Source: a bacterium (GTDB taxonomy: Bacteria; CAIWAD01). Taken from it: 64,000 nucleotides of DNA. A program made the translations under genes and the position numbers. Location of the stretch: positions 1 to 64,000 of the forward strand of contig JAUIFJ010000011.1 of NCBI GenBank assembly GCA_030429345.1, in the 5' to 3' direction. The notes beneath the pieces are model-generated. The model saw nothing but the letters and a program-made list of their open reading frames with translations, was not told where the DNA came from and did no database searches. Shown in pieces: positions 5,124 to 51,950 of the stretch (position 1 is its first letter; the number at the start of each line of letters is the position of its first letter).

Positions 5124-7262
5124 ATGCAGTGCATCACTTTTCTCTGGACCCTTTGTTCCTGTCTGGCGGGGCTGACTCCGCTTGTGCAGGATGCGCGGGC
5201 CCAGGACTGTGTCGACCTTCGGGACTATCCCCGCATCTCTTTTGAAGCTTCCGCATCGGGAGTGCTGCAGCTTCTCTCTTTCGGGGAGCTGGTGCTTGTG
5301 CTGGGGGAGGACCGCCAGCTGCGAATCCTGGACTCCCAGCAGCCGGAAGCGGATCCCATTGGGCAGTACCAGGCGGGATCGAACCTGACGGCCATGGCTC
5401 TGGACGTCGATCGACTGGCCATCAGCTCCCAGATCGGCGTGCTGCTGCTGGATTTGCAGGATCCTTCGCAGCCGGACAGCCTGGGTCTGGTTCTGCTGCC
5501 CTTCTCTCCCAATCGCCTGGTGCTGGAAGGCGACCGGCTGGCGGTCGGTTCCTTCAACCAGGGGCTGGTCTACTGCAATATCGAAGACCCTTCCCAGCCC
5601 GACGTGATCTGGACATCGCCTGAAATCTCCTTCAATGCCGGACTCGTTCCCACGACCGATGGATTGGCGGCCCTGGACCTGATGGGGCTCCTGCAATTCT
5701 ACGAACTGGGAGAGGACTCCCTGCTGACGCGGGGCAGCCTGCCGGAAATCGGCCTGGCCAATGGACTGGTCGCATTCGGGGACACCCTCGCGGTCAACGG
5801 GGTCGATGGGACGATCCTGGTCGATGCCCGGAATCCCGATGCCCCTGCCGTGATCGGCTCCCTGGACGAGAACAACTGGCGAGCGGCACGACGCGAAGGA
5901 TCCTTCCTGCTGCTTCTGGATCCCGCCTCCCTTCGTGTGTTGGACTTCCAGGACGCCCTCAATCCGGTCGCGCGTCTCCGCGTCGGAGTGAACTCGGGCA
6001 GGGACCTTCTGCAGGTAGACGGGGCCTTGTGGCTGGCCTCGGCCGACAACTTGCTGGGACTGGAGAACCTGGACGCTCCGCCTCTTGAGCCTTCCTCCGG
6101 TGTGACGCTTCCCGGCCAGCTGCAGAGCCTGAGTGTCTACGGGGACTACTACCTGGCGGCGCGCACAGCGGTCGACGGAATCGGCCTTTCTGTTTTCGAC
6201 CTGAGCACTCCAGGTTTTCCGGTGGAGGTCGGTTCGGCCTTTGGATTCAGCAATGCCTCGCAGGTGGTCACCGCAAGGAATCACGCCTACTTGCCCACGA
6301 CACAGGGCGTGCGAATCGTCGACCTGGAGTTTCCCTGGACTCCGCTCTATGCGGGGGATTTCCGCGATGGGGAATCACAGCTGCAGCTTGCCGCGGGCGA
6401 TTCGACGCTCTATGTGCTCGACTCGGAGGATCTGCTGCATGTCTACAGCCTGGAGGATCCGCTGGCGCCGGCATTCCGCGGAAGCCTGGCGCTGGAGCAC
6501 AACCCGACAACGATCCGGGTCTGCGGACAGCGGCTATATGTTCCCAGCGCCGGACTCGGCCTGCAGATTCTCGACCTGTCGGACCCCTGGTCTCCGGGGC
6601 TTCTTGGAGCACACGAGATTCTCAGCCCGCAGTTCGACCTGCTCTGCGAAGGCGAACGGGTCTGGATCGGCTGCCGCGAGGAAGGCCTGCTCTGCGTGGA
6701 TGTCGGCGATCCGGCCAACCCGCAGCGCCTGTCCAGCACCCCGATGGCAGGATTCTTCCTGGACGCGGACCGGATCGGCAACACGCTCTACGTGGCCGGA
6801 GGAGAGGCGGGCGTTGCCGTATACGACGTCGGTGATCCGGCTGCCCCGGTGAGAATCGGGAATCTCTTCCACCAGGGCTACTGCCGCGCGGTGATCGCCG
6901 AGGCGGACAGGGTGCTGGGCGCCTGGAGTACGGAAGGGCTGCAGCTCTTTCCCCCGCAGTGCGACGACAGTGTCGACCTCTTGCCGCCCGCAGCTCCGGC
7001 CTCCTTTGCCCTGCATGCCCCGGCTCCGAATCCCTTCAATCCGCAGACGATTCTTCGCTATCGCCTGGAGAAGCCGATGTCGGTGCAGTTCCATGTATAC
7101 AGTGTGACAGGCGCGAGGGTGGCAAGCCGGAATGCGGGAGTCCAGGCGGCGGGTGACCATTCCTGGACGTACCGGGGACAGGGCCTGGCCAGCGGCCTCT
7201 ACCTGATTTCGCTGCAGACGCCTGCAGGCGCGCAGACACGCAAGGCGCTGTTGCTGAAGTAG
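5124..7262 (+). CDS. Secreted LVIVD-repeat protein with T9SS sorting domain
   Basis: An exported protein of about 712 residues. An N-terminal signal peptide (MQCITFLWTLCSCLAGL...ARAQ) is followed by many roughly 45-residue LVIVD-type beta-propeller repeats of the form LxVxDLxDPxxPxxxG (for example VYDVGDPAAPVRIGN). A C-terminal domain of about 80 residues begins PAPNPFNPQTILRYRLE and ends GLYLISLQTPAGAQTRKALLLK, the usual FlgD-like / type IX sorting signal. It is probably delivered to the cell surface. The ATG at 5124 was chosen because the signal peptide begins there; an in-frame ATG at 5100 would add an unlikely 8-residue leader. Binding partner and function are unknown. Confidence 0.8.
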   Translation: MQCITFLWTLCSCLAGLTPLVQDARAQDCVDLRDYPRISFEASASGVLQLLSFGELVLVLGEDRQLRILDSQQPEADPIGQYQAGSNLTAMALDVDRLAISSQIGVLLLDLQDPSQPDSLGLVLLPFSPNRLVLEGDRLAVGSFNQGLVYCNIEDPSQPDVIWTSPEISFNAGLVPTTDGLAALDLMGLLQFYELGEDSLLTRGSLPEIGLANGLVAFGDTLAVNGVDGTILVDARNPDAPAVIGSLDENNWRAARREGSFLLLLDPASLRVLDFQDALNPVARLRVGVNSGRDLLQVDGALWLASADNLLGLENLDAPPLEPSSGVTLPGQLQSLSVYGDYYLAARTAVDGIGLSVFDLSTPGFPVEVGSAFGFSNASQVVTARNHAYLPTTQGVRIVDLEFPWTPLYAGDFRDGESQLQLAAGDSTLYVLDSEDLLHVYSLEDPLAPAFRGSLALEHNPTTIRVCGQRLYVPSAGLGLQILDLSDPWSPGLLGAHEILSPQFDLLCEGERVWIGCREEGLLCVDVGDPANPQRLSSTPMAGFFLDADRIGNTLYVAGGEAGVAVYDVGDPAAPVRIGNLFHQGYCRAVIAEADRVLGAWSTEGLQLFPPQCDDSVDLLPPAAPASFALHAPAPNPFNPQTILRYRLEKPMSVQFHVYSVTGARVASRNAGVQAAGDHSWTYRGQGLASGLYLISLQTPAGAQTRKALLLK

Positions 7263-7306
7263 AACCGCATCGACGCGGGCGGCGAGCGGCGAGCGGCGAG
7301 TGGCAG

Positions 7307-7759
7307 CTATTTCGTGGAAGGGTGCCGGTGTCCGGCGTGTTCCGCGCAGCGCGCGCAGTTGACCCATTCCGCGTCCCCGTCCGTGTAGTGCTCCTTCTTC
7401 CAGATGGGCACGCGGTGTTTCAATTCGTCGATCACGAACTGGCAGGCCTCGAAGGCCTCGCCGCGATGTCCGCTGAGCGCTCCGACCCAGACAGCCACAT
7501 CCCCGATTTCCAGGGCGCCCGTGCGGTGCACGCAGGCCAGGCCCAGCAGCGGAAAGCGCTCGCCGGCTTCGGCCAGGATGCGCTTCATTTCCCTTTCGGC
7601 CAGTCCGGGATAGGCCTCGTACTCCAGGCGGTCCACGGAGCGGCCCTCGTTGCTGTTGCGTACACGCCCCTCGAAGGAAACCAGGGCGCCGGCCCCGGGA
7701 GCGGCAAGCTCCCGGTTCAGGGCGGCGCAGTCGATCGGTACAGCCTGTAGACGAAACAT
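7307..7759 (-). CDS. moaE: Molybdopterin synthase catalytic subunit MoaE
   Basis: A 150-residue large subunit of molybdopterin synthase, which converts cyclic pyranopterin monophosphate to molybdopterin using the MoaD thiocarboxylate. Family blocks are GALVSFEGRVRN, YEAYPGLAEREM, VHRTGALEIGD, and GHRGEAFEACQFVIDELKHRVPIWKKE with the active-site lysines. The ATG at 7759 gives the normal family length; longer reading upstream overlaps moaD. A C-terminal tail with CARCAEHAGHRH is slightly Cys/His-rich. It is the last gene of the minus-strand operon moeA-moaC-mobA-moaD-moaE, only 2 bp after moaD. Confidence 0.95.
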   Translation of the reverse strand: MFRLQAVPIDCAALNRELAAPGAGALVSFEGRVRNSNEGRSVDRLEYEAYPGLAEREMKRILAEAGERFPLLGLACVHRTGALEIGDVAVWVGALSGHRGEAFEACQFVIDELKHRVPIWKKEHYTDGDAEWVNCARCAEHAGHRHPSTK

Positions 7760-7761
7760 GT

Positions 7762-8001
7762 TCAGCCTCCGGCCACGGGGGGAATGAAGACGACGCGATC
7801 GCCCTCGCACAGGGATCGATTCCAGGAAGAGAAGTCGTCGTTGACGGCGGCGCGCAGGTGCTCCCGGTCCATGCCGAAGCCGTGCGCGCGGTTCAGCTCC
7901 TCGTAGAGATCGCCGACAGTAGGGGCCTCCGTGATGCACGTCTCGCTGGAAAGGCCGCGCAGCTCGCGCAGGCGGGCGAAATAGTCGACCTGGATCTTCA
8001 C
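7762..8001 (-). CDS. moaD: Molybdopterin synthase sulfur-carrier subunit MoaD
   Basis: A 79-residue ubiquitin-like sulfur carrier. It starts with a GTG (KIQVDYFARLRELRG) that overlaps the end of mobA by 4 bp and is preceded by GGAGGGAGGA. The beta-grasp core (VGDLYEELN, AAVNDDF) and the terminal PPVAGG are visible; the last Gly is adenylylated by MoeB and converted to a thiocarboxylate, then delivers sulfur to MoaE, encoded immediately downstream. Its short length and lack of an ATG hide it inside a longer spurious frame. No moeB-like E1 enzyme is encoded in this window. Confidence 0.92.
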   Translation of the reverse strand: MKIQVDYFARLRELRGLSSETCITEAPTVGDLYEELNRAHGFGMDREHLRAAVNDDFSSWNRSLCEGDRVVFIPPVAGG

Positions 8002-9029
8002 CGGGGTCCTCCCTCCAGTCGCTGCCTGGCTTTCTCGTATTCGTCGGGATGATTGATGTTGTCCAGCGCTTCCGCCTGCGGCAGATCCAACAGGCGGACC
8101 GAGCTCTTGATCAGCATCTTGCGCGGGCAGGAGATCCCTGCCGCCAGGAAGCGGTGCAGGACGGGGAGCATGGCCGGTTCCCAGATGGCGCACAGCGGCT
8201 CGGGCAATCCGTCCGTCGCGCTGCGGAAGGCGGTGGCCGCCTTCTGTGTCACGCGCTGCTCGAGCAGGGTCTCCAGGGTGGCCGCCTCCAGGAAAGGCAG
8301 GTCGCAGGCCAGGACGAGCCAGGCGTGATCCGGCAACTGGTGCATCGCGCTCAGGATGCCGCCCGCCGGGCCGAAGTCCAGGAAGCGGTCGTGGATCACG
8401 GGAAGACCTCCCGCTTCCTGGTCCGCGCGCAGCCCCAGGTAGACTTTGTCGCACACGCCGGCAAGCAGCTCGAAGGCCGCCTGCTGCTGGGGCTTCTCCC
8501 GGTAGACCAGTTGCGCCTTGTCGCGGCCCATGCGCCGGCTGCGGCCCCCGGCCAGCACCAGCCCGGCCAGCGGCGACCGGTTCTCTTCGCGCGCCAGCCA
8601 GTGGGCCAGGGCCTGGCGCAGGGCAGGATCCGCCTCGTCTTCGCGCGCCAGCTCCGTGTCCTGCCCGTCGACCAGGGTCGCGAAACCGTGCTCGCCCTCG
8701 GTCCCTTCTTCTGCGCGCAATCGCAGGATCAGGTCCGCCTCCCCGTTCAGCAACTGCTGCTGGCGGAACGGCGGCGGGCCGTGGTGCTGCAGGATCCAGC
8801 CCTCGCTGCTGTGACGCAGGTGTCGTATGTACCCGCGCCCGTCGCCGCTTTCCAGCTCTTCGCCTTGCGGATCGCCTTCGACCACCAGCACGCGGAAGTC
8901 CTCCGGCAGCAGGGCGAGGATCCGTCCGGCAAGCTGCGTGCGGCCTTCCGCCGTACCGCCGCGGACGGCCAGGCCGTCGCGCGGCTCCGGAAGAGGCCTT
9001 GCGCGGTTGCAGTCAGTCTTTGCGGACAT
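7998..9029 (-). CDS. mobA: MobA guanylyltransferase with degenerate MobB-like N-terminus
   Basis: A 343-residue, two-part protein. The C-terminal part (about residue 153 on) is MobA, which transfers GMP from GTP to molybdopterin. Its nucleotidyltransferase loop is LAGGRSRRMGRDK (159-171), followed by DFGPAGGILSAM and LACDLPFL. The N-terminal part of about 150 residues resembles MobB in layout (strand-loop-helix at the start, LLPEDFRVLVVEGDP), but its P-loop reads GGTAEGRT around 24-31, with the invariant Lys replaced by Arg and the glycine spacing changed. It therefore may not bind GTP. The start lies 17 bp inside moaC, and moaD begins inside its 3' end, so translation is probably coupled. 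Confidence 0.85.
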   Translation of the reverse strand: MSAKTDCNRARPLPEPRDGLAVRGGTAEGRTQLAGRILALLPEDFRVLVVEGDPQGEELESGDGRGYIRHLRHSSEGWILQHHGPPPFRQQQLLNGEADLILRLRAEEGTEGEHGFATLVDGQDTELAREDEADPALRQALAHWLAREENRSPLAGLVLAGGRSRRMGRDKAQLVYREKPQQQAAFELLAGVCDKVYLGLRADQEAGGLPVIHDRFLDFGPAGGILSAMHQLPDHAWLVLACDLPFLEAATLETLLEQRVTQKAATAFRSATDGLPEPLCAIWEPAMLPVLHRFLAAGISCPRKMLIKSSVRLLDLPQAEALDNINHPDEYEKARQRLEGGPR

Positions 9030-9480
9030 CGTTGGATCCTCCTCGTTTCTCGACCAGGCGAATGCCGTGGATCTCCATGTCCTGCGTGACGGCCTTGCAC
9101 ATGTCGTATACGGTGAGGGCGGCGACGCTGGCCCCGGTCAGGGCCTCCATCTCGACGCCTGTCCGGTGATGCACGCGCACCGTGCACTCGATGGCCACCT
9201 CTTGCCCGCGGAGCCGAACCGTGATCCGGCATCCGTCGATGGGAAGGGGATGGCAAAAGGGGATCAGCGAGGAGCACTGCTTGACGGCCTGGGTTCCGGC
9301 GATGATCGCGGTCTGGAAGACGGGCCCCTTCTTGCTGTGATACTCGCCCTCGCTGAAGAGGGAGGCGAGATCGGCAGGCAGCTGCACGCGGGCCTCGGCC
9401 CGGGCCATGCGCTTCGTTGGCGTCTTGGCGCCCACGTCCACCATGCCGGGCTGGTTCTTGTCGTCTACGTGACTGAGCAT
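9013..9480 (-). CDS. moaC: Cyclic pyranopterin monophosphate synthase MoaC
   Basis: A 155-residue accessory enzyme that turns the MoaA product (3',8-cyclo-7,8-dihydro-GTP) into cyclic pyranopterin monophosphate. Diagnostic blocks are MVDVGAKTPTKRMARAEA, AGTQAVKQCSSLIPFCHPLPI, and GVEMEALTGASVAALTVYDMCKA with the catalytic Asp and Lys in the last motif. Length is typical. It lies 6 bp after moeA and overlaps mobA by 17 bp within the same operon. No moaA is encoded within this window, so the first pathway step must be encoded elsewhere. Confidence 0.95.
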   Translation of the reverse strand: MLSHVDDKNQPGMVDVGAKTPTKRMARAEARVQLPADLASLFSEGEYHSKKGPVFQTAIIAGTQAVKQCSSLIPFCHPLPIDGCRITVRLRGQEVAIECTVRVHHRTGVEMEALTGASVAALTVYDMCKAVTQDMEIHGIRLVEKRGGSNDVRKD

Positions 9481-12151: not shown

Positions 12152-12328
12152 GACATGAATCGCGAATCGCCGTGTGGTTGTTCCACGCGGCGGTTCGGAT
12201 CCCCACCGCGGCCAGGGCCAATGTGTTCAGATCGATTCGACCCCGCCGCGACCAATACCAATCCATCGTCGGGCTCGTTCGGCTACCACCACGACCAGGG
12301 CCAACCTGTTCAGGCCGATTCGACCTCC

Positions 12329-12463
12329 GCCGTGGACCAGGGCCCACGGCTATCGTTCTGGGCCACTGCGTGACCCGGTCTATTGGTCAATCCGCCTCTG
12401 TTTCGAATGCAATCAATTGCCGCGCAGCCGCAACGAACGATAACCGCGGGCCTTGGTCCGCGG
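12329..12463. repeat. REP pair 1 (BIME)
   Basis: Inverted hairpins: GCCGTGGACC-AG-GGCCCACGGC with TATCGTT tail (12329-12357) and its partner AACGATA-ACCGCGGGCC-TT-GGTCCGCGG (12436-12463). The conserved 7-nt tails face each other across 78 bp. Confidence 0.85.
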
Positions 12464-12742
12464 AAACCGGAACGCGCACCAACCCCCGTTCCCATTCGCC
12501 AACCACCGTGACGCACGCCAACCCCCGTTCTCATTCACGGTTGATCGGAACGGACACCCATTCCGCACGAATCGCCGCAAATCGGCGCACCATTGATCAG
12601 GGCCCGTTCGCATACCGCCGCGGCCAATGCCGACCATTGTCAGATCGATTCAACCCCGCCGCGACCAATACCAATCCATCCTCGGGCCCGTTCGGCCACC
12701 GTCGTGGGCCAGGGCCAACCTGTTCAGGCCGATTCGACCTCC

Positions 12743-12771
12743 GCCGTGGACCAGGGCCCACGGCTATCGTT
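12743..12771. repeat. REP hairpin, left partner of the RAYT-containing pair
   Basis: Same hairpin and TATCGTT tail as the left member of pair 1. Its partner is not 107 bp away but 728 bp away at 13471, with the transposase gene in between. Confidence 0.85.
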
Positions 12772-12795
12772 CTGGGCCACTGCGTGACCCGGTCT

Positions 12796-13450
12796 GTTGG
12801 GCGGAAGAGAGAGGGTGTACGGCCTGTAGTACAGGGTAGTCAAGCCCATGTTCTGTCCGCGTAGTTGTACACCCTGTGCAGCTCGATGAGATATCCGGTG
12901 ATTGGTTGTTGTTTGAGGAGTATATAGGGGTGATATTAGGACACAAGACACGGAAAACCATTTGAGATCAAATCCATGGGAAGCTACAGCAGCCTTACAG
13001 CACATGCAGTCTTTGCGACGAAGCACAGACAGCCGATTATCAGGAAAGAATTGCGTGATCCGCTGTATTCATATATGGGAGGCATTCTAAGGCGAGCAAA
13101 ATGCAAGAGTTTGATGATTGGTGGAGTGGAGGATCATGTCCATGTGTTATTCGGGTTTCCTCCCACAATGGACCTTTCGGAACTTCTCTGCGAAGTCAAA
13201 TCAGGTTCTTCTCGCTGGCTGAATACTGAAATGCTGGTCAATGGAGGGTTTCGTTGGCAGATCGGATATGGTGTATTCAGCATTAGCGAATCACACAGAT
13301 CCAGGGTCTGTCGATATATCCAGAATCAGGAGATTCATCACAAGAAGCGAAGTTTCGAGGATGAGTATCACGCACTCCTTCGACAACATGGATTCGATCC
13401 ATCGCATGATCAGCTACTCAAGAAGAGAAAAGAGGGATGAGTCACCACCA
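12796..13450 (+). mobile_element. RAYT insertion within a REP pair
   Basis: Compared with the uninterrupted pairs, sequence identity after the left hairpin stops near 12795 (after GACCCGGTCT) and resumes near 13450 (CGCAGCCGCAACGAAC). About 655 bp containing one transposase gene replace the usual roughly 60-bp inter-hairpin core. Base composition inside is much more AT-rich than the array. No target-site duplication is visible, as expected for Y1 transposases. Confidence 0.7.
12976..13440 (+). CDS. REP-associated tyrosine (IS200/IS605-like Y1) transposase
   Basis: A 154-residue Y1 HUH transposase of the IS200/TnpA_REP superfamily: MGSYSSLTAHAVFATKHRQPII at the N-terminus, GGVEDHVHVLFGFPP with the HUH (His-Val-His) metal-binding pair, and CRYIQNQEIHHKK with the probable nucleophilic Tyr in the YIxNQ helix. 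Such enzymes cleave and join single-stranded DNA at hairpins. The gene sits between two inverted REP-like hairpins at 12743 and 13471, which is the defining context of a RAYT. Catalytic residues look intact, so it may be active. Codon use and GC differ from neighbours, indicating separate ancestry. No tnpB accompanies it. Confidence 0.88.
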   Translation: MGSYSSLTAHAVFATKHRQPIIRKELRDPLYSYMGGILRRAKCKSLMIGGVEDHVHVLFGFPPTMDLSELLCEVKSGSSRWLNTEMLVNGGFRWQIGYGVFSISESHRSRVCRYIQNQEIHHKKRSFEDEYHALLRQHGFDPSHDQLLKKRKEG

Positions 13451-13470
13451 ATCGTCCCGCAGCCGCAACG

Positions 13471-13498
13471 AACGATAACCGCGGGCCTTGGTCCGCGG
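13471..13498. repeat. REP hairpin, right partner of the RAYT-containing pair
   Basis: AACGATA followed by the CCGCGGGCC-TT-GGTCCGCGG hairpin, identical to the right member of pair 1, starting 31 bp after the transposase stop codon. Confidence 0.85.
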
Positions 13499-13807
13499 AG
13501 CACCGGAACGCACGCCAACCCCCGTTCCCATTCGCCAACCACCGTGACGCACGCCAACCCCCGTTCTCATTCACGGTTGATCGGAACGCACGTCCATTCC
13601 GCACGAATCACCGGGACGCGTCCCCATTCCGCACGAATCGCCGCAAATCGGCGCACCATTGATCGGGGCCCGTTCGCATACCGCCGCGGCCAATGCCGAC
13701 CATTGTTAGATCGATTCAACCCCGCCGCGAACAATACCAATCCATCGTCGGGCCCGTTCGGCCACCGTCGTGGGCCAGGGCTAACCGATTCTGGCCAATT
13801 GACCTCC

Positions 13808-13942
13808 GCCGTGGACCAGGGCCCACGGCTATCGTTCTGGGCCACTGCGTGACCCGGTCTATTGGTCAATCCGCCTCTGTTTCGAATGCAATCAATTGCC
13901 GCGTAGCGGCAACGAACGATAGCCGCGGGCCTTGGTCCGCGG
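13808..13942. repeat. REP pair 3 (BIME)
   Basis: Left hairpin 13808-13836 and right hairpin 13915-13942 with the same 107-bp start spacing as pair 1. The right member has AACGATAG instead of AACGATAA. Confidence 0.85.
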
Positions 13943-14250
13943 AAACCGGAACGCACGCCAACCCCCGTTCCCATTCGCCAACCATTGTGACGCACGCCAA
14001 CCCCCGTTCTCATTCACGGTTGATCGGAACGCACGTCCATTCCGCACGAATCACCGGGACGCGCCCCCAATCCGCACGAATCGCCGCAAATCGGCGCACC
14101 ATTGATCGGGGCCCGTTCGCATACTGCCGCGGCCAATGCCGACCATTGTCAGATCGATTCAACCCCGCCGCGACCAATACCAATCCATCGTCGGGCCCGT
14201 TCGGCCACCACCACGACCAGGGCCAACCTGTTCAGGCCGATTCGACCTCC

Positions 14251-14385
14251 GCCGTGGACCAGGGCCCACGGCTATCGTTCTGGGCCACTGCGTGACCCGG
14301 TCTATTGGTCAATCCATCTCTGTCTCGAATGCAACGAATAGTCGCGCAGCGACAACGAACGATAACCGCGGGCCTTGGTCCGCGG
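14251..14385. repeat. REP pair 4 (BIME)
   Basis: Left hairpin 14251-14279 and right hairpin 14358-14385, again 107 bp start to start. Sequence after it decays into shorter AACGCATGC/CCATTC repeats up to about 14510. Confidence 0.85.
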
Positions 14386-14554
14386 AACACCGGAACGCGC
14401 ACCAACCCCCATTCCTGTTCACGATTCATTGGAACGCATGCACAACCCCAATCGCAAACCACCGGAACGCATGCCCATTCCCATTCGCAACCCATCGGGG
14501 TGTGACGAGTTGCGGATCTTTGTTCGTGGCGATTCGTGCAGGAGGGCGAGGGCC

Positions 14555-33186: not shown

Positions 33187-34109
33187 GCCTGCAGGAGCTT
33201 CCTGTAGTACGCACCCAGCTCGTGGTTTCCGACGGGCTTCGGCATCTCGGCTGGTGATCGTTGCTGCAGCAGGCGAAGGGAGCCGGCCATGAATTGTGCG
33301 ATTTCCCAGGCATTGCGGGAAAAGGGGCGAACCAGCGGCAGCAGCGCGTTCACAAGGCCCAAAGGCAGGTGGCGGACGCGGACTTTTTGATCCAGGCACT
33401 CCCCGCAGAGGGCGGCCAGCTCGCTCCAGCTGAAGCACTGCGGGCCTCCGATTTCATGCACGGCCCGGTGGCCCTCCAGGGCCAGCAGGCTTTCCACCAC
33501 CAGCGGGCCCAGGTCCTGCAGGGAGATCGGGTTCATGCGCACGCTGTTGTCGCCCAGGGCCCAGATAGTGCCCTTGCGCGCCATTTCCAGGATCTCGGTC
33601 ATGTCGCTGAAGAACCCCGTCGGGCGAAGGATCACGTGATCCACTCCGCAGGCTGCCAGGGCGCGTTCCGCGTCTCCCTTCATGCGCAGCATCTCGACAG
33701 GACTCTCCGGGTCCGCTCCGTATACACTGACAAAGGCGATCCTCTCAAGCCCGGGCGTCTGCCGCGCCTCCTCGAAGAGGTTGCTGTTGGCGTCTACATC
33801 CACGCGTCTGCGCTCGACGCGGTCCTTCTGCCGCGTCTTTCCCAGCGCGGAGGCCAGACAGCGGCATCCGGTCAGGGCCCCCGCAAGACTCTGCGGATCG
33901 AGCGGGTCGACCTCGACAATGTCGTCCACCTGTTCGAGCAGATCCCCGAGCCGACTGCGGTCACGGACCAGGGCCCGTACGCGCAATCCGGCCCGGATGG
34001 CCGCCCTCAGGATTTCTTGGCCACAGTTCCCCGTAGCGCCGGCGACGGCGATCCAGGTTCCTTCCTGGGGCTTCGTATCGGCATAGGCCGATTCGGGGCA
34101 GGAGCTCAT
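33183..34109 (-). CDS. NAD(P)-binding NmrA/TIP30-like protein
   Basis: A 308-residue atypical short-chain dehydrogenase-like protein. The N-terminal Rossmann motif is VAGATGNCGQEI (GxxGxxG), followed by LVRDRSRLGDLLEQVDDIVEVDPLDPQSLAGALTGC, the usual NmrA-like layout; downstream are RIAFVSVYGAD, HVILRPTGFFSDM and DLGPLVVESLL. The Tyr of a catalytic YxxxK is not evident, so it may be an electron-transfer chaperone, quinone-type reductase or redox sensor rather than a classical dehydrogenase. RBS GGGGGAG lies 7 nt before the ATG at 34109. It follows the 92-residue gene by 1 bp, and both appear to be driven by the sigma-54 promoter at 34423-34438. Confidence 0.8.
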   Translation of the reverse strand: MSSCPESAYADTKPQEGTWIAVAGATGNCGQEILRAAIRAGLRVRALVRDRSRLGDLLEQVDDIVEVDPLDPQSLAGALTGCRCLASALGKTRQKDRVERRRVDVDANSNLFEEARQTPGLERIAFVSVYGADPESPVEMLRMKGDAERALAACGVDHVILRPTGFFSDMTEILEMARKGTIWALGDNSVRMNPISLQDLGPLVVESLLALEGHRAVHEIGGPQCFSWSELAALCGECLDQKVRVRHLPLGLVNALLPLVRPFSRNAWEIAQFMAGSLRLLQQRSPAEMPKPVGNHELGAYYRKLLQA

Positions 34110-34110
34110 G

Positions 34111-34389
34111 TCATTCTCCCCCTCTTTCCGCTCCGATGAAAGGATACCAACTGCTGTGATGCACGATGCCACAGTCCTTCAGTTCGGCTGCCAGTCGCAG
34201 ACCGATGACACTCGTTCCAGCCTTGTGGGAGGCCTCTGCCTGATGCAGGTGGATTGACAGGTCACCTTCTTCCGGTTGGCGAATCCAGATTTTCACATCC
34301 GGTCTGCAGTCCTTCAGTTCTTTCAGAAGCCCTTCCAGCTGCTTCCGATTTCGGCCAATCCCTCTCACGGTGATGATCTCCAGGCCCAT
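34111..34389 (-). CDS. Unknown 92-residue protein under sigma-54 control
   Basis: Not recognised. A 92-residue soluble protein: MGLEIITVRGIGRNRKQLEGLLKEL, then CRPDVKIWIRQPEEGDLSIHLHQAEASHKAGTSVIGLRLAAELKDCGIVHHSSWYPF. The predicted pattern is alternating beta-alpha, rather like a dimeric ferredoxin-like (antibiotic-biosynthesis-monooxygenase) or ACT-size domain, but that is inference. It has no signal peptide and is rich in His in its second half. GGAGGG lies about 10 nt upstream of the ATG at 34389; the frame is open further upstream but lacks a start with a ribosome site. It is the first gene after a sigma-54 promoter facing an enhancer-binding activator, and is followed 1 bp later by the NmrA-like gene. 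Confidence 0.6.
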   Translation of the reverse strand: MGLEIITVRGIGRNRKQLEGLLKELKDCRPDVKIWIRQPEEGDLSIHLHQAEASHKAGTSVIGLRLAAELKDCGIVHHSSWYPFIGAERGGE

Positions 34390-34422
34390 GCTTTCTGTCC
34401 CTCCGATTTTTGCCACTCGGAA

Positions 34423-34438
34423 AGCAAGTCCAATGCCA
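34423..34438 (-). promoter_or_regulatory. Sigma-54 promoter of the 92-residue/NmrA-like operon
   Basis: On the minus strand the sequence reads TGGCATTGGACTTGCT, matching the sigma-54 consensus TGGCAC-R-N4-TTGCW at every conserved base except the last C of the -24 block (T here), with correct spacing. Transcription would start near 34411, about 20 bp before the start codon at 34389. Confidence 0.75.
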
Positions 34439-34546
34439 AGCTGCAAGCTGTTTAAAATCAGTAGTTTTGAGAATGGGTTAGTTAGAAATGTGAAATAGAA
34501 CAACAAAGATGATTGTATATCACAACATTTGGCATTACTGTGAAAT

Positions 34547-36133
34547 ATGACAACCGAAGAACTCCCGACAATTGATCCAGCAGAGTCCTTTTTTCGCGAC
34601 GCCACCCTTGCCATCTGCCGGCATCAGCAGGCCCACCACTCTCTTCAGGCCTGCGCCGCCATCCTTCGCCGGCATCTGCCCGTCGATCGCATGTTTCTCG
34701 AAGTCTACGAGAGCGATCTGGGCGCAATGCGTTCCATCGCCGAAGCGACACCGGATGATGGACATGCCCTGGATCTGCTGGTCCCGATGAGTCCCGAGCG
34801 CAGGCAAACCATCGAGGCATTCCGTGACCAGGCTCCCGCGGACAATGTCTTCATCGTCAATCGGCCGGAAGAAGACGCCGTTTCGAGCACCATGCTGCAT
34901 GCGCTTGGCGAGAACCAGGACTGCTCGATCCTCGGCACCTATCCCGTGCTGGACGGCAAACCGCTTGGCGCGGTTATCGTGCTCGCCAGGGGAAAGGACC
35001 GCTTCGAGAAGCAACACGCCCGGCTGCTTGGACAGCTGAAAGCACCCTTCGGAATTGCTCTCCACAATGCACTCAGATTCCGGGAGGTGATCCGCCTGCA
35101 GGAGCGGCTGCAGGACGACAACCGCTACCTGCAGCGGGAGGTCCTGGATCACAGCGGAAGCCACATCATCGGTTTCGATTTCGGGCTTGCCGCTACCATG
35201 CAGGCCGTCAACCGGGTGGCGGTGCATCACAGCCCGGTCCTGCTTACGGGGGAGACCGGTGTCGGCAAGGATGTCATCGCCAACTACATCCACGGTGTAT
35301 CACCGCGCTCGGCGGGGCCGATGATCCGCCTGAACTGCGGCGCGATCCCGGAGTCGCTGCTCGACAGCGAACTCTTCGGCCACCAGAAGGGCGCCTTCAC
35401 GGGAGCGCTGGAGACCCGTCGCGGCCGCTTCGAACGGGCCCATGGCGGAACGATCTTCCTGGACGAGATCGGGGAACTCGATACCGCCGCCCAGGTGCGT
35501 CTGCTGCGCATCCTGCAAAACAAGGAACTGGAGCGCGTCGGAGGAAACGAGACCTTGCACGTGGATGTGCGCGTGATCGCAGCCACCAACCGGGACCTGC
35601 AGGAGCAGGTGCATGAGGGCGCCTTCCGGGAGGATCTCTGGTTCCGGCTGAACGTGTTTCCTGTCCACGTGCCGGCCCTGCGGGATCGCCTGTGCGACAT
35701 TCCGGCCCTGGCCGAACATTTCGTATCACGAAAAGCTGTCGAGCTGAAGCTGGGCAAGGTGCCCCGGCTGGAGGCGGCGCAGCTGGACCGCTTGCGCGCC
35801 TATCCCTGGCCCGGGAACGTGCGCGAACTCGAGAACGTGATCGAGCGGGCACTGATCCTTGGTGGCGGCGAGAAGCTGGTGTTCGACTGGATTCCCGCGA
35901 CCGCGCCGGAAGCGGGCGTCACGGCGGCACTTCCGTCCACGAAGGACTTTCCCGGCATGGACGATGCCATGCGCGCGCACATCCGCAAGGCCCTGGTGCT
36001 CAGCGAGGGGCGCATTCATGGCCCGGGCGGAGCGGCAGAGCGGCTCGCACTCAACCCGAATACGCTGCGCAGCCGTATGAGGAAGCTGGGCATGGAGTTT
36101 CCACGCGCGAAGAACCGCGCCGGGAAGGCATAG
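34547..36133 (+). CDS. GAF-domain sigma-54-dependent transcriptional activator
   Basis: A 528-residue bacterial enhancer-binding protein. An N-terminal GAF-like sensor (about 15-185) is followed by the AAA+ domain with Walker A GETGVGKD (235-242), the sigma-54-contact loop GAFTGA (282-287), Walker B IFLDEIGE (Asp306, Glu307), and RLNVFPVHVPALRDR. A C-terminal Fis-type HTH starts around 480 (MRAHIRKALVLSEGR...LALNPNTLRSRMRKLG). The domain order resembles NorR/NifA/FhlA, where GAF senses a small molecule or gas. There is no receiver domain or obvious ligand motif. It is divergently transcribed from a two-gene operon preceded by a sigma-54 promoter 110-125 bp away, its most likely target. Confidence 0.92.
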   Translation: MTTEELPTIDPAESFFRDATLAICRHQQAHHSLQACAAILRRHLPVDRMFLEVYESDLGAMRSIAEATPDDGHALDLLVPMSPERRQTIEAFRDQAPADNVFIVNRPEEDAVSSTMLHALGENQDCSILGTYPVLDGKPLGAVIVLARGKDRFEKQHARLLGQLKAPFGIALHNALRFREVIRLQERLQDDNRYLQREVLDHSGSHIIGFDFGLAATMQAVNRVAVHHSPVLLTGETGVGKDVIANYIHGVSPRSAGPMIRLNCGAIPESLLDSELFGHQKGAFTGALETRRGRFERAHGGTIFLDEIGELDTAAQVRLLRILQNKELERVGGNETLHVDVRVIAATNRDLQEQVHEGAFREDLWFRLNVFPVHVPALRDRLCDIPALAEHFVSRKAVELKLGKVPRLEAAQLDRLRAYPWPGNVRELENVIERALILGGGEKLVFDWIPATAPEAGVTAALPSTKDFPGMDDAMRAHIRKALVLSEGRIHGPGGAAERLALNPNTLRSRMRKLGMEFPRAKNRAGKA

Positions 36134-48326: not shown

Positions 48327-48881
48327 ATGCATCGATCCCGTCGGCAAGGACTGCAACTGCTTGTTGCACTCTTCCTGCTTACCCTGGCGGCCCTGCTGCT
48401 GAGCAGCTGCCGCAACCCCTTCGCCCCGGCCCTGGGCGAGGCCCGCAGCGCCTGGAGCGACCAGGCCACGGTGGGCGGCCTGCTGGAGAACTTCCGCATG
48501 TCCTACATCCGCCGGGACTCGCTGCGCTATTCGGAATGCCTGGCCTGCGAGGGCTTCCGCTTCAATTACCTGGACACGGAGCTGGGCGAGTACAGCACCA
48601 TGCCCCGCGAAGTCGACTTGGCCACCACCGGCCGCCTCTTCCGCCACTTCAGCAACGTCGACCTGCGCTGGCTGGGAATCAGCGAGGAGCTCTCGGCTAT
48701 CGCCACCCCGGACAGCCTGATCACCTTCACGGTCTTCTTCTCCCTGAGCCTGGACGTCAACACCATCGACGGCCACGCCCGCTTCACCGTGCTACGCAGC
48801 AGCGGGGAAGACGGCTGCGAGGGCTCGCTCTACGAGGGGGAAGAGGTCTTCCGGATTTTGCAGTGGGATGATACGCTGTAG
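48327..48881 (+). CDS. Lipoprotein of unknown function (2)
   Basis: A putative lipoprotein of about 184 residues: HRSRRQGLQLLVALFLLTLAALLLSSC (lipobox LLSSC), then RNPFAPALG and an NTF2-like pattern (TVGGLLENFRMSYIRRDSLRYSECLACEGFRFNYLDTE ... LITFTVFFSLSLDVNTIDGHARFTVLRSSGEDG), ending EEVFRILQWDDTL. Likely one of the small NTF2-like lipoproteins that recur in tandem in this lineage. The ATG at 48327 begins the signal peptide. Its last 39 bp reappear, with 5 substitutions, at 50998-51036 on the far side of the AT-rich two-gene island, so its present 3' end may have been supplied by an integrating element. Confidence 0.65.
   Translation: MHRSRRQGLQLLVALFLLTLAALLLSSCRNPFAPALGEARSAWSDQATVGGLLENFRMSYIRRDSLRYSECLACEGFRFNYLDTELGEYSTMPREVDLATTGRLFRHFSNVDLRWLGISEELSAIATPDSLITFTVFFSLSLDVNTIDGHARFTVLRSSGEDGCEGSLYEGEEVFRILQWDDTL
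48843..48881 (+). repeat. Left 39-bp direct repeat (possible attL)
   Basis: Covers the codons for EVFRILQWDDTL plus stop of the lipoprotein gene. Matches 50998-51036 at 34 of 39 positions. Confidence 0.7.
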
Positions 48882-48980
48882 ATTCTACGTATTGAATATG
48901 GGGTCGGCGATACGCACATTCCAGTTTTGCACTTTCTTACTGATCTTGATCATGCTGAATGACAACAATTGAGGTGTATT

Positions 48981-50345
48981 ATGCTCGTACGGCTACAGGT
49001 TAAGAACTTCAAGAATATCAGAGACGCTGAGATCCGATTTGGACCTGTTTCCTGCCTAATTGGCCATAATGGCGTGGGAAAGTCTAATCTGTTTGATGCA
49101 ATTAAGTTTCTAAGCTTGCTTGCTGAGAACTCAATTCATGAAGCGGCAGATGGCGTTAGGGGCTCAAAGGATGCAGCATACTCGCCCTTGGATTTAGTCT
49201 ATAACAGGGACAAGAGTGCAGTAATACAACTAGCAGCTGATATGGTTGTGCCAAGTGTTGTAGTGGATGATTTTGGGCAATCAGTAAGCCCAAGTATTAC
49301 ACTCCTTAGTTACAAGGTGTCCTTATCATACTCTTCCGAGTATGATAGGCTAGTGCTAATTGAAGAACACCTTGAAGGTGTAAAAATAGGGGACTTTAGC
49401 AAGTTTGTCGGATTTAAGTGCTCACCGGAATTCAAGAGTTCTGTAGCAACTGGCGCAAGAAGAGGTGGACCCCTAATCTCGACTGATGACGAGAGAATTA
49501 GACTTCATGGCGATGGGGGGAGCAGAGGCAGACCAGCCCCAGTCGGCAAGTCTCCTTTAACTGTTGTTGGTGGAACGAATACGTCAGACTATCCTACAGT
49601 TTTAGCCGCCAAACGCGAAATGGCATCTTGGAAACTACTCCACTTAGAGCCATCTGCGATGAGAATGCCTGATCAACGTTCTGCTTCTCCACACGTCACA
49701 TCTAATGGAGGAAGGATTGCGTCAACATTTCATTCACTAGTGTCAGGTAATTCAAATTTGAAGTTTGAAATCATTGGTAGACTTCGAAAACTGAACTCCG
49801 ATATCGTGGATTTAGATGTTCATAGTGATGCGGCAAGGGATCAGCTAGCCCTTAGGGCGAAAGTACCAGGTGTTGACAACTGGTTGTATGCGAGGTCGTT
49901 ATCAGAGGGTACCCTTCGATACATAGCATTGGTCTTCATGCTAGTTGATGTGAACGAGAGAGCAGTACTATGCTTGGAGGAACCGGAGAATGGTATCCAT
50001 CCTTCAAGAATACCGTCCGTAGTTCAACTCCTTCATGATTATGCTGTTGATCCTGGGTTTGAGGTTAACTCAGAAAACCCATTGCGCCAGGTTATCATTA
50101 ATACCCATTCACCAGAAGTAGCTAGGAGAATGAATGTTGATGATTTGGTGTTTGTCGATCGAGTGAGTTCGAATGAATCTGGAAGCTACTGTCTTTTTCG
50201 TCCAATTCAAGGTACATGGAGAGCTTCATACGAGAATCAGGGAGTTCTGCCAAAGAACAAGAGGGCGTTTGTTGATTTCATTGGGGGGTCACCAGTCTCT
50301 GATGATACAATTCAACTGGAATTAAGGTTTGGGACGGCAACTTGA
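48981..50345 (+). CDS. RecF/OLD-like AAA ATPase (AAA_15/AAA_21 type)
   Basis: A 454-residue ABC/SMC-type ATPase. It opens LVRLQVKNFKNIRDAEIRFGPVSCLIGHNGVGKSNLFDAI with Walker A G28-S35, has the signature-like ARSLSEGTLRYIAL, Walker B AVLCLEEPENGIHP, and the H-loop INTHSPEVARRM. The long middle (about 60-290) is divergent. This architecture is shared by OLD nucleases, RloA, PARIS AriA and other defence ATPases in which ATP-dependent sensing gates a nuclease. The ATG at 48981 follows GAGGTG; a TTG 12 bp upstream is a weaker start. The partner gene begins inside its stop codon. Gene is AT-rich relative to neighbours, indicating transfer. Confidence 0.88.
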   Translation: MLVRLQVKNFKNIRDAEIRFGPVSCLIGHNGVGKSNLFDAIKFLSLLAENSIHEAADGVRGSKDAAYSPLDLVYNRDKSAVIQLAADMVVPSVVVDDFGQSVSPSITLLSYKVSLSYSSEYDRLVLIEEHLEGVKIGDFSKFVGFKCSPEFKSSVATGARRGGPLISTDDERIRLHGDGGSRGRPAPVGKSPLTVVGGTNTSDYPTVLAAKREMASWKLLHLEPSAMRMPDQRSASPHVTSNGGRIASTFHSLVSGNSNLKFEIIGRLRKLNSDIVDLDVHSDAARDQLALRAKVPGVDNWLYARSLSEGTLRYIALVFMLVDVNERAVLCLEEPENGIHPSRIPSVVQLLHDYAVDPGFEVNSENPLRQVIINTHSPEVARRMNVDDLVFVDRVSSNESGSYCLFRPIQGTWRASYENQGVLPKNKRAFVDFIGGSPVSDDTIQLELRFGTAT

Positions 50346-50941
50346 CACGGCAGATCACTTTTACACTTATTGCCGAAGGTGGAACAGATAGGGTTCTACT
50401 TCCTATCATTCAGTGGGCAATCCATAGGCTTGATCCTCAGGTGGACATTGTTGAACCAGAGTTCCGCAAGAAAGAGAGCAGCGTTCAAGAAACGCTACAA
50501 AATCTAAACTCTGATTCGATGTTGATTTTCTTTCATCGTGATGCAGATAATCAGCCATATGCCCAAAGACTTGAGGAGTTCCCTGTCTCAACTGGGATAA
50601 ATCTTGTTCCTGTCATCCCAGTTCGTATGACAGAAGCTTGGTTGCTTGTTGATGGGGGTGCTATTGCCAAAGCTGCATGTGTCCCGTCAGCAATGGTTAG
50701 TCTTCCAAATACTCGCACCATTGAGTCTATTGTAGATCCTAAGGCAGTGTTAGAACTTCTTTTACTTGAGGCTGCTGGTAATCCACGAGGTCGTAGGAGA
50801 AAGCAGTTCAAACGAGATATTGTTGAGAAACGAGTTGACATTGCAACTTGGATTTCAGACTTCTCGCGACTGGAGTCGTTGGACTCGTTTCGGCGTTTTC
50901 AATCGAGATTGAGAGAGGTTTACCCGTATCGTGTGTATTGA
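50342..50941 (+). CDS. DUF4276/TOPRIM-like partner of the defence-type ATPase
   Basis: A 199-residue protein with a TOPRIM-like arrangement: strand plus Glu motif LIAEGGTDRVLL (Glu12), then DxD in LIFFHRDADNQ (Asp67, Asp69), followed by VIPVRMTEAWLL (Glu98), a pattern typical of DUF4276-like proteins coded beside AAA ATPases. Those acidic residues would bind Mg2+ for nucleic-acid cleavage. A TTG start overlaps the ATPase TGA by 3 bp (CTTGA), so the two are translationally coupled and probably form one complex. Functionally analogous pairs include AriA-AriB (PARIS), RloA-RloB and AbiLi-AbiLii, but none of those identities is claimed. The AT-rich composition matches the ATPase gene. Confidence 0.75.
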   Translation: MTRQITFTLIAEGGTDRVLLPIIQWAIHRLDPQVDIVEPEFRKKESSVQETLQNLNSDSMLIFFHRDADNQPYAQRLEEFPVSTGINLVPVIPVRMTEAWLLVDGGAIAKAACVPSAMVSLPNTRTIESIVDPKAVLELLLLEAAGNPRGRRRKQFKRDIVEKRVDIATWISDFSRLESLDSFRRFQSRLREVYPYRVY

Positions 50942-50997
50942 GCATTTCTGTAGATCCAGGTTGTTTATTTCTTAAGTGTTTGTTCAAGGTAAGCCAA

Positions 50998-51036
50998 GAG
51001 GTTTTCCGGATCTTGCAGTGGAAGGATATGCTGTAG
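50998..51036 (+). repeat. Right 39-bp direct repeat (possible attR)
   Basis: Diverged copy of the lipoprotein 3' end; it encodes EVFRILQWKDML plus stop and lies 56 bp after the TOPRIM-like gene. It has no start codon or signal peptide upstream, so it is a gene-end remnant and not a gene. Confidence 0.7.
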
Positions 51037-51236
51037 CACACCCACCCATCCCCCTCCGCCCGCCGCCGAGGCCCGCCCGGTAAGAGTCCCACCATTGGCA
51101 CTGCCCGCCCACTTCCTTACCTTGGCCGCTTGACTTATATCAGTAAGGCTTCGCGCGGTTCTGCCGACACTGTCAGACTGCGGCGTATACTGCATTCCCC
51201 TCGCGGGATCCGGCCTTTTTCCAGCTTCGGAGAAGC

Positions 51237-51950
51237 ATGAGACTCGGCGTCAACATCGACCACATCGCCACCCTGCGCCAGGCCCGGCGCACGGTGGAGC
51301 CCGATCCGGTCCACGCGGTGGGCCTGGTGGAGCGGGCAGGAGCCAACGGCATCGTCTGCCATTTGCGGGAGGACCGGCGGCACATCCTGGATCGCGATCT
51401 GGAACTGCTGCGCAAGGTGGTCACCTCCCATCTCAACCTGGAAATGGCCGCGACGGAGGAGATGGTGCGCATTGCCATCGAAACCGGCCCGGACATGGTG
51501 ACCATCGTGCCGGAGAAGCGCGAGGAAGTGACGACCGAAGGCGGACTGGATGTTCGCGCCGCTGGTTCGCAGCTCAAGGAATTCATCGACAAGCTGAAAG
51601 CCCACGACATCGTGGTCAGCCTCTTTGTCGATCCCCAGCTGGAGGTGCTGAAGGAGTGCCGTCGGCTGGGCGCGGACTTTGTCGAACTGCACACGGGCGG
51701 CTATGCCAACATCCAGTCGGAAAGCGAGGCCGCGCAGGAAGCGGCGCGCATTCGTGAAATGGCGATGGCCGCGCGCAAGTTCGGACTGCGGGTCAGTGCC
51801 GGTCACGGCCTGACCTACCAGAATGTCGAGGCCATCGCCTCGATCCCTGAAATCGAGGAGCTGAACATCGGCCACAGCATCATGGCCCGCGCGATTTTCG
51901 ACGGATTGTCGAAGGCCGTCGGCGACATGGTCCGGCTGCTGCGCTCCTGA
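51237..51950 (+). CDS. pdxJ: Pyridoxine 5'-phosphate synthase
   Basis: A 237-residue TIM-barrel enzyme condensing 1-deoxy-xylulose 5-phosphate with 3-amino-1-hydroxyacetone 1-phosphate to pyridoxine 5'-phosphate. Signatures are [86 protein letters not shown] and [14 protein letters not shown]. It starts a co-directional cluster with a HAD hydrolase (4 bp later) and fbp. Together with pdxH at 2.9 kb it shows DXP-dependent B6 synthesis. The upstream 200 bp includes the island's right boundary. Confidence 0.96.

Follow-up and report, generated by a model that had tools for sequence, protein, structure and literature searches.

The window analysed here, that is, the whole stretch of 64,000 nucleotides, contains a small island of low GC content that lies between two imperfect copies of the 3' end of a lipoprotein-like gene (lip). 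The island between the copies measures 2.1 kb and holds only two genes, which encode (i) an AAA ATPase; and (ii) a small, probably TOPRIM-like protein. The coordinates of the locus are collected in Table 1.

Table 1. Features of the locus from lip to pdxJ, in window coordinates.
Feature	Position	Strand	Basis
Host lipoprotein-like gene lip, putative insertion target	48327..48881	+	ORF; orthologues 50-62% identical in G001-G004
Left repeat copy, attL-like, in-frame lip end	48841..48881	+	36/41 vs right copy
Island leader, lip stop to ATPase start	48882..48980		39% GC
AAA_15/AAA_21 (RecF/OLD-like) ATPase, HEC-01A	48981..50345	+	PADLOC PDLC04184 1.5e-75; Pfam AAA_21 1.6e-26; alignment A1
Small, probably TOPRIM-like (DUF4276-like) protein, HEC-01B, TTG start	50342..50941	+	PADLOC PDLC04210 2.3e-19; AF2 model
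Island trailer	50942..50995		37% GC
Right repeat copy, attR-like, orphan lip tail	50996..51036	+	No lip similarity upstream
Host spacer preceding pdxJ, 63.5% GC	51037..51236		Resembles the 188-bp lip-pdxJ spacer of G004
pdxJ, right-hand host neighbour	51237..51950	+	68-73% identical, syntenic in G001-G004

Repeat copies and composition of the island

The two copies of the lip end are 41 bp long and differ at 5 positions (88% identity), the longest run without mismatches being 9 bp. A previous sequence-only reading had placed a 39-bp repeat with five substitutions at 48843-48881 and 50998-51036; these positions are exact, and the match extends by two further identical bases. The tails encoded by both copies end in frame at a TAG stop codon (EVFRILQWDDTL and EVFRILQWKDML, respectively). 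Beyond the 41 bp, no similarity above that of shuffled sequences was found within 200 bp on either side, upstream or downstream.

In an ungapped comparison of module flanks, the repeat scores 28.5, while the maximum among 810 Markov-shuffled flank pairs (from 81 loci) is 16. That the repeat reflects chance similarity or an assembly artefact is most improbable: the score lies far outside the shuffles and, although the assembly consists of 92 contigs, the island and both flanks are found on one contig of 134,794 bp, in an order conserved with relatives. When the 4.24-Mb genome was searched with an 18-bp core, allowing up to 3 mismatches, these two were the only good copies, and the remaining matches (all with 3 mismatches) occurred at about the control level. 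The core was absent from the viral contigs searched, and neither genome nor viral contigs contained an integrase-bearing sibling with the same core. The proposal that the repeat might also flank other cargos was not borne out by these searches, which found no second element.

As claimed in the sequence-only reading, the ATPase/TOPRIM module is foreign in composition. GC content is 0.66 in lip, 0.39 in the leader, 0.45 in both genes, 0.37 in the trailer and 0.635 after the right copy (37-45% for the island vs about 64-66% for the flanks), and on both sides the boundary falls at a repeat copy. Two other stretches of the window deserve mention: (i) long direct repeats, spaced about 443 bp apart in a complex array (12182-14489), where GC dips to 0.46 and an ORF (12976-13440) looks, by eye, like an IS200-type Y1 transposase; and (ii) a second low-GC dip (0.49) at 34101-34900, adjoining a sigma-54-type regulator gene and without any flanking repeat of note.

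Regarding gene content, neither tRNA, Rfam RNA nor recombinase was found in the island (the genome has 12 PF00589 matches, 0 of them in the island), so that the claimed absence of a recombinase stands. Transfer genes are absent as well, both genes being assigned, and no promoter or terminator signals above shuffles were detected. An autonomous integrative element can be ruled out, since there is no integrase of its own between the repeats. Likewise, a transposon or insertion sequence is ruled out by the missing transposase and terminal inverted repeats, the inverted repeats at the island ends being chance-level pairs only. The integrase loci of the same genome were also checked for a matching site: low-GC islands elsewhere have integrases, and these are unlinked to the 41-bp repeat.

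The HEC-01 gene pair

The ATPase has a Walker A motif (GHNGVGKS), a signature motif (LSEGTLR), a Walker B motif (CLEEPENGIHP) and an H-loop (NTHSP), and its best PADLOC match is HEC-01A. The neighbouring gene, whose start overlaps the end of the ATPase gene (50342 vs 50345), has HEC-01B as its best match, and this model is also matched by 37 of the 38 aligned homologues. The small protein retains the motifs EGGTD and HRDAD. Its AlphaFold model has a pLDDT of 94, and the best PDB folds are C-terminal regions of OLD nucleases; because these matches are weak (E 0.006, TM about 0.44), the predicted structure makes the protein only likely to be TOPRIM-like.

By sequence, then, the cargo of the island is a HEC-01 pair, a candidate defence system in PADLOC. 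Its putative function is most likely anti-phage defence of an abortive or nucleolytic type, in which the ATPase would act as the sensor and the TOPRIM-like protein as the nuclease. The pairing is kept in nearly all of the 80 homologous loci retained for comparison, among which the closest sequence relatives (60-64% identical) come from MAGs labelled Acidobacteria, Thermoanaerobaculia, Gammaproteobacteria and others.

Like the HEC-01 system of PADLOC, the island has a HEC-01A ATPase gene adjoining a HEC-01B TOPRIM/DUF4276-like gene; what sets it apart is that the insert, bounded by att-like repeats, carries nothing besides this candidate pair. The ATPase plus TOPRIM architecture is shared with PARIS and with Gabija/OLD, and the ATPase also matches the AriA and GajA models, while the structural model of the TOPRIM-like protein weakly matches OLD. 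Nevertheless, membership in PARIS is ruled out, as the AriB partner is absent: the partner gene matches HEC-01B models, and the AriB model is not among its matches. Unlike Gabija/OLD, the island has neither a fused ATPase-TOPRIM protein nor a helicase gene.

The insertion site in related genomes

Relatives of the same family (G001-G003) and of the same class (G004) were compared, together with a further genome (G005) for a deacetylase gene; no relatives of the same genus or species were found, even when genome contigs were scanned with the lipoprotein as query. In G001-G004, the lip orthologues lie between an isocitrate/isopropylmalate-dehydrogenase-like gene and pdxJ. In the three family-level relatives, the dehydrogenase gene is followed by a small gene, lip, a deacetylase gene (PF04748) and pdxJ; in G004, lip is separated from pdxJ by 188 bp. 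Each of the four genomes has lip with a single tail, and lacks the island, its ATPase and a second lip tail. Since these relatives combine a single copy with the absence of the island, the insertion is lineage-specific. Moreover, the two tails of the window differ from each other at 5/36 positions and from the orthologous tails at 11-13/36, so the tail duplication is younger than the split of the genus from its sister genus.

A different explanation for the second tail is the decay of a tandem duplicate, that is, a second lipoprotein gene before pdxJ of which all but the last 41 bp was replaced by the ATPase/TOPRIM pair. The right copy does encode an in-frame lip tail with its stop codon. But the sequence upstream of it has no similarity to lip, the relatives have neither a second tail nor a paralogue between lip and pdxJ, and only coincidence could have placed the left island boundary exactly at the stop codon of the first gene. 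The sequence-only reading had named two arrangements that would speak for such decay, namely two tails without the island, or a right copy that terminates a complete paralogous lipoprotein gene; neither is seen in G001-G004, and no paralogous lipoprotein lies behind the right copy. All this makes tandem decay improbable.

Allelic exchange, in which the pair would have replaced the deacetylase gene between lip and pdxJ with the repeat as a by-product, is slightly less probable still. In its favour, the site holds the PF04748 deacetylase in G001-G003 and G005, whereas this gene is missing from the whole genomes G000 and G004; however, replacement alone makes no second lip tail, and G004 is an example of deacetylase loss without the island, its spacer of 188 bp being similar to that of 200 bp found here. 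In fact, removing the island in silico yields lip, 200 bp and pdxJ, the same shape as in G004. The alignment with island-less relatives proposed in the sequence-only reading thus confirmed lip with one tail, but not a clean junction: no clean empty site was seen in these relatives, three of which have the deacetylase at the site while G004 is related at class level only.

Homologous modules and the origin of the island

The 80 homologous loci (kept from 494 relatives reported by a scan) were inspected for repeats that hug the module, defined as lying at most 500 bp from it on each side and scoring at least 18. With this threshold, which was chosen post hoc, hugging repeats were found around 6 of the 80 modules vs 1 of 514 control stretches of equal length from the same loci (Fisher p = 3e-5). 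Since the controls come for the most part from ordinary genome, this enrichment is measured against average sequence rather than against other acquired genes. Gene ends are involved in four of the six: (i) a tRNA-Val 3' end, duplicated with 44/45 identities around two genes only (L128); (ii) a molybdopterin-oxidoreductase gene, duplicated at its 3' end (L068; 99/108), with the intact gene on one side, the tail on the other and only two genes inside; (iii) the 3' end of hsdS, duplicated around the module (L093); and (iv) a terminator-like hairpin directly after acnA (L100; 39/44). In the remaining two cases, the repeat is a short one of 29 bp that was assigned to no gene end (L091; 25/29) or corresponds to the 5' region of a NUDIX gene (L082), the latter being a partial duplication that was rejected as a gene-3'-end case.

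When wider flanks were considered, a tRNA-Thr 3' end was found on both sides of the pair at a further locus (L123; 37/37). The pair is adjoined there by the relic of a tyrosine integrase, whose PF00589 match (2.2e-4) falls short of the curated cut-off. This compact stretch of 3.7 kb (5314-9042 of that locus) may represent a transitional form between elements with and without an integrase. At L093, the hsdS tail remnant (7995-8150) lies past the HEC-01 pair and is followed by another AAA-type ATPase gene, while the intact hsdS gene adjoins.

About 94% of the homologous set lacks flanking repeats. No hugging gene-end duplication was found around some 22 further modules in other genomes; at one of these (L159), a 39-bp match with a score of 19.0 lies 1,061 bp upstream of the module. 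Nor were there flanking repeats above chance around nine distant homologues, or conserved non-coding ends common to the modules.

With moderate confidence, the stretch 48882-50995 is considered to be an att-bounded, integrase-less (CIME-like) island with a HEC-01 pair, integrated site-specifically at the 3' end of lip. An attachment site at this 3' end would have recombined with a matching tail on a circular or donor form, whereby the left product would retain the lip reading frame and stop codon and the right product would be an orphan tail. Because the cargo includes no recombinase, the enzyme would have been supplied in trans or lost later by deletion, leaving the island with cargo only. 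An integrating role of the TOPRIM-like protein itself finds no support. The 3' ends of tRNA genes are the classic target of integrases, and those of protein-coding genes are standard targets too. Tyrosine-type recombination at gene 3' ends would be the simplest account, favoured by the tRNA 3'-end cases and the integrase relic at L123; the lip and molybdopterin-oxidoreductase cases have the same geometry at protein-coding genes. The recombination step, the type of recombinase and any present mobility are all putative.

Site-specific integration at this 3' end had already been proposed in the sequence-only reading. It gains support from a foreign, lineage-specific island with coincident boundaries, from the intact lip end and from homologues between duplicated 3' ends; the clean empty site is the part that did not emerge. 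Also counting against it are the 88% identity of the copies, the missing recombinase, the lack of repeats around most homologous modules, the lack of conserved element ends and the deacetylase at the site in the closest relatives.

The same structure might have arisen without a site-specific enzyme, which is possible but rather unlikely: DNA with the lip tail would have been joined by homologous (Campbell-type) or RecA-independent short-repeat recombination, or by fill-in of a staggered break at end joining. The repeat is short and imperfect, a recombinase is absent, and for the microcin H47 island, which likewise encodes no recombinase, RecA-independent short-repeat recombination has been reported (PMC5426353); furthermore, the lack of repeats around most homologous modules would suit varied routes. 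On the contrary, two homologous modules lie between tRNA 3' ends, one of them with an integrase relic, and others lie at the 3' ends of protein-coding genes, whereas fill-in at random breaks gives no preference for gene 3' ends.

The sequence-only reading had called the arrangement unusual and cassette-like. This was overstated, because recombinase-less islands bounded by repeats are already known: (i) CIMEs, which keep attL and attR and have lost their integration and transfer genes (PMC5704250); and (ii) the microcin H47 island of Escherichia coli, which lies between imperfect direct repeats (PMC3191183; PMC5426353). Like CIMEs, the island has attL/attR-like repeats and a gene 3'-end target, and lacks integration and transfer genes, but it is confined to 2.1 kb and two cargo genes, its att-like sites are recognised by sequence and its descent from an ICE or IME is putative. 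It shares with the microcin H47 island the small size, the imperfect direct repeats and the absence of an encoded recombinase; the latter island, in contrast, spans 13 kb, has repeats of about 146 bp at 76% identity, carries a microcin cargo and has been excised experimentally. Integration at gene 3' ends is also found in SGI1, at trmE (PMC8409611), and in the Dehalococcoides vcr islands at ssrA, which leave behind a duplicated 20-bp ssrA tail (PMC3146451), but these are much larger, integrase-encoding families. By its anatomy, the island fits the known recombinase-less kind; its cargo is unusually small, and its target is a protein-coding gene.

What does merit pursuit is that one two-gene module is repeatedly tied to unrelated gene ends. 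Tentatively, and more probably wrong than right, HEC-01 pairs could be a recurrent class of recombinase-free defence cassettes of about 2 kb that trans-acting integrases spread and insert at the 3' ends of tRNA or protein-coding genes, recognisable repeats having since vanished from most of the older insertions. If defence pairs do move as bare two-gene inserts via integrases encoded elsewhere, this would be a testable route for part of the scattered, isolated defence genes, and the duplicated gene tail would offer a searchable signature that needs no recombinase gene nearby. Finally, one homologous locus (L071, 6001-7459) contains a broken HEC-01 pair, with a truncated ATPase ORF and a fragmented TOPRIM gene, at 46% GC in a host of 67% GC; this is a decaying copy.
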